Source: Candidatus Baltobacteraceae bacterium (GTDB taxonomy: Bacteria > Vulcanimicrobiota > Vulcanimicrobiia > Vulcanimicrobiales > Vulcanimicrobiaceae). Taken from it: 63,917 bases of DNA. A program made the position numbers and the translations under genes. The stretch lies in the NCBI GenBank assembly GCA_035502855.1, contig DATJTX010000004.1:1-63917 (forward strand), in the 5' to 3' direction. Below the pieces are notes generated by a model. That model was not told the origin of the DNA. It saw nothing but the letters and a program-made list of their open reading frames with translations, and searched no databases. Below are positions 9,295-10,879 of this stretch, one piece after another. The stretch's first letter is position 1. Each line of letters opens with the position of its first letter.

Positions 9295-10101
9295 ATCTTT
9301 ACTTATCGCGACGAGCGCAAATTATTCGCGCTGATTGCCGTCATCATTGTGGCGGCAACGCTTGCCCTCGTGCAAATCAACGCGGAACGTGCGGGAACGA
9401 TCAGTCCGCTTGCATCGATTGCGACCTCGCTCGCGTCGTTTGCCGAGAGCGCGTCGACGATTGCGATCGACGGCGGTCAGAGCGCGGTTCATTCCGTCAT
9501 CTCGCTGCCGATGCTCGAACGCGAGAACGCGCAATTACGCGAGCAGAACCGTGCGCTCTCGGCCGAGAACGCGCGCCTGCACGAACTCGCTGCGCAGTAC
9601 GCCTCGGAGGTCAGCATTCGCCCCGCAGTCGATCTGTATCCCAAGGGTATCGAAGCGCGCGTAATCGGTTTCCCGCCGGAGGACGATTCACGTACGGTGA
9701 CGATCGATCGCGGCAGCAACGCCGGTGTGCGCACCGACGACGGCGTGATCGCGAGCGGCGGTGTCGTCGGCCGGGTCGCGTCGGTCGGTCCGCTCTCCAG
9801 TGAAGTCGTCCTCATCACCGATTACACCAGCCGCATTCCGGCGATCACGCGTCAGGGACGCTACTGGGGCATCGCGCGCGGCAATCTCTCGAGCGTGCGC
9901 GTCGAGTACATCCCGCAAGACGCGCCGCTGAAAACCGGTGAGACGATCGTGACCGGCGCCGGACGCTCGTTCCAATCCGGCGTGCCGATCGGGACGATCG
10001 TTTCGATCGAGCGCAGCGATGCCGCGCTGTACCAAACCGCCGTTCTCCGCCCCGCCGTGAAGCTCGGCGCGCTCGATCGCGTTGTCGTCCTCCCGCACTA
10101 G
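9295..10101 (+). CDS. mreC: Rod-shape protein MreC, probable ATC start
   Basis: 268 aa from ATC 9295 (250 aa from GTG 9349). MreC links the cytoplasmic MreB/MreD complex to periplasmic cell-wall enzymes. From 9295 the N-terminus reads FTYRDERKLFALIAVIIVAA, a complete basic-then-hydrophobic membrane anchor, and GGGAG stands 5 bases upstream (9285-9289). The first conventional start (GTG 9349) would cut this helix in half. The in-frame stretch back to the TAA at 9263 has no ATG, GTG or TTG. A coiled coil (about 70-100) and the beta-barrel domain (VTIDRGSNAGVRTDDGVIAS) follow. The stop codon TAG doubles as the target duplication of the inserted element. Confidence 0.88.
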   Translation: MFTYRDERKLFALIAVIIVAATLALVQINAERAGTISPLASIATSLASFAESASTIAIDGGQSAVHSVISLPMLERENAQLREQNRALSAENARLHELAAQYASEVSIRPAVDLYPKGIEARVIGFPPEDDSRTVTIDRGSNAGVRTDDGVIASGGVVGRVASVGPLSSEVVLITDYTSRIPAITRQGRYWGIARGNLSSVRVEYIPQDAPLKTGETIVTGAGRSFQSGVPIGTIVSIERSDAALYQTAVLRPAVKLGALDRVVVLPH

Positions 10102-10368
10102 GTGTTCCGCGCCACACGTAGCGGCACATTCGGTGCGATCATCGGCCCGCGCGGACGAGACGCGATGAGCGACAAAAGCAGCGCTTTGCGAGCGAAGAGC
10201 AACGACGTCCGCGCGGTGCCGATGACGCAACCCTTCGGGCTGGGCCGGCATAAGCCGGATCCTTCGTCGCTCGTCGGTCACAGAGCCTCGGCTATTCTCC
10301 CTCCTCGCTCCTCGGCTTCGGCTTATGCCGGCTCCAGCGAATGCGCCGGTACGTATGGCGCGGAACAC
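10102..10368. mobile_element. 267-bp non-coding foldback (MITE-like) insertion
   Basis: The ends are 31-base terminal inverted repeats (10102-10132 and 10338-10368) matching at 28 of 31 positions and beginning GTGTTCCGCGCCA. TAG (or CTAG) flanks both sides, at 10099-10101 and 10369-10371. Inside are two further hairpins: 10132-10157 with 10206-10232, and 10240-10257 with 10319-10337 (arms containing GCCGGCATAAGCCG). The whole element can fold as a three-way junction. It encodes nothing convincing. A CTAG target would suit mobilisation by an IS5-like transposase, but none is seen here. Confidence 0.75.
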
Positions 10369-10879
10369 TAGAATCCACATTGCGCGCGTCATCGCGCCTA
10401 CGTGGTACATCTGTGCTGCGTGGTTGGTTCTTGCGATATTCTTGCAAGTGCGGTTCATGCACTTGCTTGCGATCCGCAACGTTGAGCCGAGTCTGGTGTT
10501 GGTCGCGGTCGTCTGGTACGCGATTCGCGTCGAGCCGTGGCGCGCCGCCGCCTTCGGTCTGGCCGGCGGCATCGCCGAGGATCTGCTCTCGTACGGGACC
10601 GGCGGCGCGTGGACGATCTCGACGACGGTGGTCGCAATCGTTGCCGGCATGATCTCACGCGGTTTCTTCGCCGACTCACTGCCGCTCGTCGCCACCATCA
10701 CCTTCGTCGCGACGCTCGTACGACAGCTGGTCTTTTGGGTCGTGATGGGATTTGAAGGGTATCCGAGCGGCCTTGGCATGATGCATTTTCACGAAGCGCT
10801 CTTCGAGGGACTGCTCAACGCTGCCACCATGATGATCGTGATGCTGGTGATGCGCCGGTTCGACCGTAACTACGCATGA
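10355..10879 (+). CDS. mreD: Rod-shape protein MreD
   Basis: 174 aa, about five membrane helices, normal for MreD, the membrane partner of MreC in the elongasome. The first 14 bases of the gene, including the ATG at 10355, lie within the right arm of the inserted element. An ATG at 10325 is an alternative. Before the insertion the reading frame would have joined sequence overlapping the end of mreC, where a TTG (about 10082) is available. The stop codon overlaps the PBP2 start (ATGA). Confidence 0.85.
   Translation: MARNTRIHIARVIAPTWYICAAWLVLAIFLQVRFMHLLAIRNVEPSLVLVAVVWYAIRVEPWRAAAFGLAGGIAEDLLSYGTGGAWTISTTVVAIVAGMISRGFFADSLPLVATITFVATLVRQLVFWVVMGFEGYPSGLGMMHFHEALFEGLLNAATMMIVMLVMRRFDRNYA

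Follow-up and report, generated by a model that had tools for sequence, protein, structure and literature searches.

A foldback MITE-like element on the mreC stop codon of a Candidatus Baltobacteraceae bacterium and its relatives sharing a hairpin module in at least nine phyla

Descriptions of bacterial MITEs are usually confined to one genus and based on the ends. The closest described relatives, in behaviour, of the element reported here are RUP, with its partner IS630-Spn1, and MITEPsy1. RUP of Streptococcus pneumoniae is a non-autonomous element of about 107 bp, proposed to be mobilised by IS630-Spn1, whose ends resemble those of the co-resident IS630 and which folds with its ends paired (PMC3049150). 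It is, however, an element of streptococci with a single end type, whereas in the present case a single module accompanies a variety of ends, in nine phyla or more. MITEPsy1 of Pseudomonas syringae, which is derived from ISPsy2, has a CTAG or YTAA target and ends (GGAAGGTCTGAAAAAGCC) like those of a subfamily with GGAAGCTCTGAAGAAGTC ends found here (PMC3189936), but it is 100 nt long, makes a 4-nt duplication and has ends unlike those of the element under study. The CIR repeats of Caulobacter are likewise intergenic, with two long hairpin arms and a linker (PMC2229807); by description only, they differ in being about 110 bp in length and GANTC-bearing, with no terminal inverted repeats or YTAR boundaries described. 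The GTAG/CGTC-tagged REPs are palindromic, are found in several phyla, lie downstream of genes and frequently come as inverted pairs (PMC3733652), but measure 20-40 bp, carry an unpaired GTAG or CGTC tag and lack terminal inverted repeats and TA boundaries. IS630 elements, of the Tc1/mariner superfamily, insert at TA with duplication of the TA (PMC2170065), and copies in the genome studied here lie at CTAG and TTAG, one of them on a stop codon; unlike the present element they encode a transposase, and none of the IS630 copies examined showed the hairpin module.

The window, the whole stretch of 63,917 nucleotides that was analysed, contains a foldback element of exactly 267 bp at positions 10102-10368. 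Its terminal inverted repeats are 31 bases each, on the left at 10102-10132 (forward strand, GTGTTCCGCGCCACACGTAGCGGCACATTCG) and on the right at 10338-10368 (reverse strand), and are complementary at 28 of 31 positions; the ends begin GTGT. The element is flanked by TAG at 10099-10101 and 10369-10371 or, read more broadly, by CTAG on both sides (10098-10101 and 10368-10371), of which TA (10099-10100) is the minimal duplication common to the group. Size, ends and flanks were therefore as originally predicted, on the evidence of the sequence and the comparison of ends, and the window copy is compatible with a duplication of either 2 or 4 bp. With 31-bp terminal repeats in 267 bp, no transposase, TAG/CTAG flanks, an empty counterpart site and dispersed related copies, the element is a MITE by its anatomy.

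Between the ends lie two hairpins, H1 (10137-10223, reverse strand; covariance model R1, 40.1 bits, E 6e-9), which has a variant apical loop, and H2 (10246-10333, forward strand; exact pattern, and 72.4 bits with E 3e-19 in model R1, whose alignment includes the H2 sequence itself), which carries GGTCAC..TCTCCCTC at 10276-10303. As they match the covariance model in opposite orientation, H1 and H2 are inverted copies of one module. The DNA fold also contains a small linker hairpin, CCCTTCGGG, at 10231-10239, and CCC..GGG linkers of this kind occur between the hairpins of elements in other phyla. The three-way junction of the original prediction was accordingly refined: its two internal hairpins are present, but the third makes the junction three- or four-way. 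The predicted RNA fold of the element reached -161.6 kcal/mol versus -113.7 +/- 5.0 for shuffled sequences (z -9.6; matched by 0 of 200 shuffles), and folding as DNA gave a z of -8.35. An 89-codon frame with a GTG start, beginning directly after the mreC stop, spans the whole element to the right TAG (10102-10371) and is probably due to chance.

The element separates mreC (9349-10101, forward strand, start approximate; open reading frame list and Pfam MreC PF04085, 1.4e-36) from mreD (10355-10879, forward strand; open reading frame list and Pfam MreD PF04093, 2.9e-6), with maf upstream of the pair and a penicillin-binding protein gene downstream. The left target copy, TAG at 10099-10101, is the stop codon of mreC, as had been claimed. 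G001, which of all the relatives searched is the only genome from the same genus (MreC match 84% identical), has an empty site: mreC ends CAATAGAATTCACAT, its TAG is intact and the mreD frame continues. When the window flanks were joined they aligned to G001 without gaps, with 117 of 153 positions identical. In other family members an mreD-like frame overlaps or directly follows the mreC stop, again with no element.

As the mreD frame of the congener overlaps the end of mreC, the insertion replaced the ancestral mreD start. The codons ATC GCG TTG TCG, which lie within mreC and are shared with the congener, now meet a stop codon within the element, and judging from the sequence their TTG was probably the ancestral start. 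The expectation that both reading frames were preserved holds in that mreC and mreD remain open, but not for the start of mreD. The right arm does supply in-frame ATGs, at 10355 and 10325, and mreD translation probably now begins at the right-arm ATG, with 10355 taken as the start above and 10325 also possible.

The search for further copies likewise argued for mobility. A full-length copy, 80% identical, is present elsewhere in G001 (G001:C371:2069-2337), together with several relatives whose outer arms have diverged but are still complementary within each copy. In the source genome, G000 (3.33 Mb, 39 contigs, 96.6% complete), no second copy with the ends of the window element was found, so that its subfamily is represented there by one copy. 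Elements with other ends nevertheless share its second hairpin: the core pattern gave 29 exact matches in G000, located in complete elements or at contig ends, versus 0 for a reversed-pattern control. The commonest ends in G000 are CTAGGGAAGCTCTGAAGAAGTC, with 33 matches at no more than two mismatches. A two-hairpin element with different ends (L403:4080-4370; G000:C31:204 kb) sits exactly on the stop of the first of two adjacent genes that we take, from their sequences, to be kdpA and kdpB. As many core matches in G000 lie within 150 bases of contig ends, the repeats probably broke its assembly. When 1.2 Mb was scanned de novo for foldbacks of the strict form YTAG...CTAR, only two complete copies were returned; the majority of copies are at contig ends, and some deviate from the rule by one base. 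Contigs ending inside copies of the GGGAAGCTC subfamily were seen at C18:38, C20:42, C21:42 and 330683, C22:107862, C29:78 and C39:245271. Several altered forms were also encountered. At L190:1480-1530 (G000:C11:32.4 kb) a remnant consists of two GGGAAGCTC-subfamily terminal repeats back to back, followed directly by an IS630 end. Two diverged solo hairpin modules (L440:6905-6993, G000:C29:46.9 kb; L390:15999-16090, G000:C25:76 kb), one just upstream of an apparent tRNA gene and the other directly after the TAG stop of a gene, are possibly relics or host-adopted. A related element, L032 (G001:C385), has a further hairpin, GGGCAACCAAAAGTATGCGATCGCGTACTTTTGGTTGCCC, that is near-perfect and apparently nested within its module.

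The module itself consists of GGTCAC, a covarying stem-loop and GCTCCCTC, above repeated tandem G.A mismatches, its consensus being CGTTGCTC-N-TCGGTCAC, an apical stem-loop, and GCTCCCTC-N'-TCGCGCC; the invariance of GGTCAC and GCTCCCTC is partly imposed by the search pattern. In the apical stem, at positions left free by the search, up to four Watson-Crick types were found per pair, and N-N' formed GC, CG, AT or TA in 147 of 169 hairpins, with six further G-T pairs. Across 59 aligned hairpins, 205 double-change cells were counted versus 67.3 +/- 7.5 in shuffles (0 of 500), and the covariation score was 0.521 versus 0.138 in shuffles and at most 0.114 for slid structures. T.C/C.T mismatches lie between paired positions, and the opposite strand reads tandem G.A/A.G, presumably as sheared pairs; it is probably this strand, with its G.A/A.G mismatches in register, that adopts the conserved fold. 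Rfam searches gave no relevant family, whether run on 17 related loci or on a 20-kb part of the window (E up to 1), and the open-access papers searched contain no description of the module.

A scan with one genome per species located the module in at least nine phyla, among the matches listed, inside elements with unrelated ends. These matches include Candidatus Eremiobacterota, Sphingomonas, Novosphingobium, Sphingopyxis and Acidobacteria, as well as Verrucomicrobia and Akkermansia, Elusimicrobia, Myxococcales, Acidimicrobiia, Saprospiraceae and Nitrospinota. Up to 39 copies were present per genome, with zero control matches, and the spread is patchy: among 150 genomes from the phylum to which one Sphingomonas belongs, a strict pattern hit 2, and among 2.9 million viral contigs it hit a single record. 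Neither the window element nor a Novosphingobium element had a blastn match in plasmids. Relative to RUP and MITEPsy1, the group differs in that a single covarying module recurs with different ends and in different phyla, and in its stop-codon niche.

The target was examined in 45 non-redundant elements with many different ends and YTA-G...C-TAR boundaries (hyphens marking the element junctions), a set collected under the TA rule in that extraction required TA-G. Those with one module measure about 150-190 bp, and those with two reach 280 bp. For most of the group the target is YTAR, and TA is common to all family members; L140 and L155 begin TA-A, making the general rule TA-R, which is still a stop. 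Unequal left and right tetramers, such as TTAG/CTAA, are seen in many members and agree with a TA duplication, and some members fit a 4-bp duplication (C5:23379, TTAG/TTAG). As TAR (TA followed by A or G) is always a stop codon, insertion at a stop regenerates the stop. Of the 39 elements whose flanks are long enough, 33 mark the end of an open frame of 100 codons or more, to one side or to both, versus 62 of 195 background YTAR sites in the same loci (p 9e-10), and 12 of 25 outer ends in G000 finish a coding-like frame versus 325 of 2658 YTAG sites (p 1.4e-5). Insertion at stop codons is thus a property of the group and not a coincidence. Single-module elements at which one gene ends were evenly divided, eight with the left gene only and eight with the right only (8 TC-strand and 8 GA-strand sense), which argues against a strand-specific function in mRNA.

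The cause of this bias is a separate matter. Purifying selection alone, with insertion at any YTAR and survival of the harmless events, is favoured by the finding that many harmless sites are stops, 323 of 1389 YTAR sites outside called genes in G000 being at stops by a crude gene call that scores 80% of the genome as coding. The same figure suggests that selection against insertion within genes does not easily explain the whole bias, since 33 of 39 insertions lie at stops versus 23% of non-genic YTAR sites (p 3e-15, a comparison across differing gene criteria and with that crude, 80%-coding gene caller). We regard selection alone as a serious contender that falls somewhat short of an even chance, and the insertions at stops may in part be survivors of selection rather than targeted.

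With regard to identity, a native structured intergenic or leader RNA controlling mreD would account for the strong fold, the operon location and the covarying module, but it is very improbable given the gapless empty site in G001 and the overlapping genes of relatives, the occurrence of related elements at unrelated loci (kdpA-kdpB) and in many phyla, the lack of orientation bias of single-hairpin elements towards the upstream gene, and the absence of an Rfam match. The pattern expected of a native spacer, namely the same sequence at orthologous positions and no copies elsewhere, was not found. REP/BIME-like palindromes moved by a Y1 tyrosine (RAYT/TIRYT) transposase would explain the paired inverted hairpins, the position downstream of genes and a broad taxonomic spread such as REPs show (PMC3733652). 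This origin appears scarcely credible for elements of 160-280 bp with long terminal inverted repeats and a TA/YTAR target and boundaries; the units are about 88 nt within 267 bp bounded by terminal repeats, as opposed to REP units of 20-40 bp with a GTAG/CGTC tag. The mobile foldback element on the mreC stop that the original prediction described is instead supported by the empty G001 site, the overlapping junctions of relatives and the related elements in the genome, genus, family and other phyla.

The type of transposase was considered next to these alternatives, as the original prediction had looked to an IS5-like enzyme with matching ends. An IS5-group MITE with a 4-bp YTAR/CTAG duplication would fit the CTAG on both sides of the window element, the TTAG/TTAG copy at C5:23379 and the abundant sister subfamily, whose GGAAGCTCTGAAGAAGTC ends resemble the published ends of MITEPsy1 and ISPsy2 (CTAG or YTAA, 4 nt; PMC3189936). 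However, no match to DDE_Tnp_1, the IS5-type transposase, was found in the 96.6% complete G000, from whose assembly repeat-rich parts may be missing; unequal tetramers such as TTAG/CTAA are not given by a 4-bp duplication, albeit in a set collected under the TA rule; and the window ends begin GTGT like those of the co-resident IS630. What G000 does contain is two intact IS630 transposases (NF033545, 260-270 bits), in elements with GTGTAGTGTCTCG ends inserted at CTAG/TTAG, one of which begins precisely at the stop codon of the gene before it. The window element matches one IS630 end at 9 of 14 bases and other elements match at up to 12 of 14, and no autonomous element with the window element's own ends was found. 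An IS5-group partner is consequently judged unlikely for the window element, at perhaps one chance in several. The likeness of the GGAAGCTC subfamily to MITEPsy1/ISPsy2, with its CTAG or YTAA targets (PMC3189936), means that more than one transposase may act, and different transposases may move different subfamilies.

The preferred reading, in which we have good though not complete confidence, is that of a non-autonomous, MITE-like transposon belonging to a group that is widespread in bacteria and takes YTAR tetramers as its target. Its 31-bp ends would have been recognised by a transposase acting in trans, most likely an IS630-type enzyme (bacterial Tc1/mariner), which would have inserted the element at the TA of the CTAG ending mreC, so that the stop was recreated and mreC left unchanged; the overlapping mreC and mreD would thereby have been split by 267 bp, with ATGs of the element probably now starting mreD. 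The module is probably kept for the life cycle of the element, through DNA folding or binding of a common factor, and not for control of mreD. A more speculative and rather doubtful extension is that the module is a transposase-independent passenger or helper, taken up or retained by many MITE families that target YTAR but are otherwise unrelated, in nine phyla or more, through the action of a widely conserved cellular factor, and that the group settled on stops as a safe niche.

Elements of at least nine phyla whose ends are unrelated are united by one structured core that neither Rfam nor the papers searched contain, which poses the question of what recognises the conserved hairpin. An autonomous partner would be expected to carry GTGTTCCGCGCC ends. 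Together with the YTAR target, the stop-codon niche offers a simple, testable account of how such elements live harmlessly inside operons.
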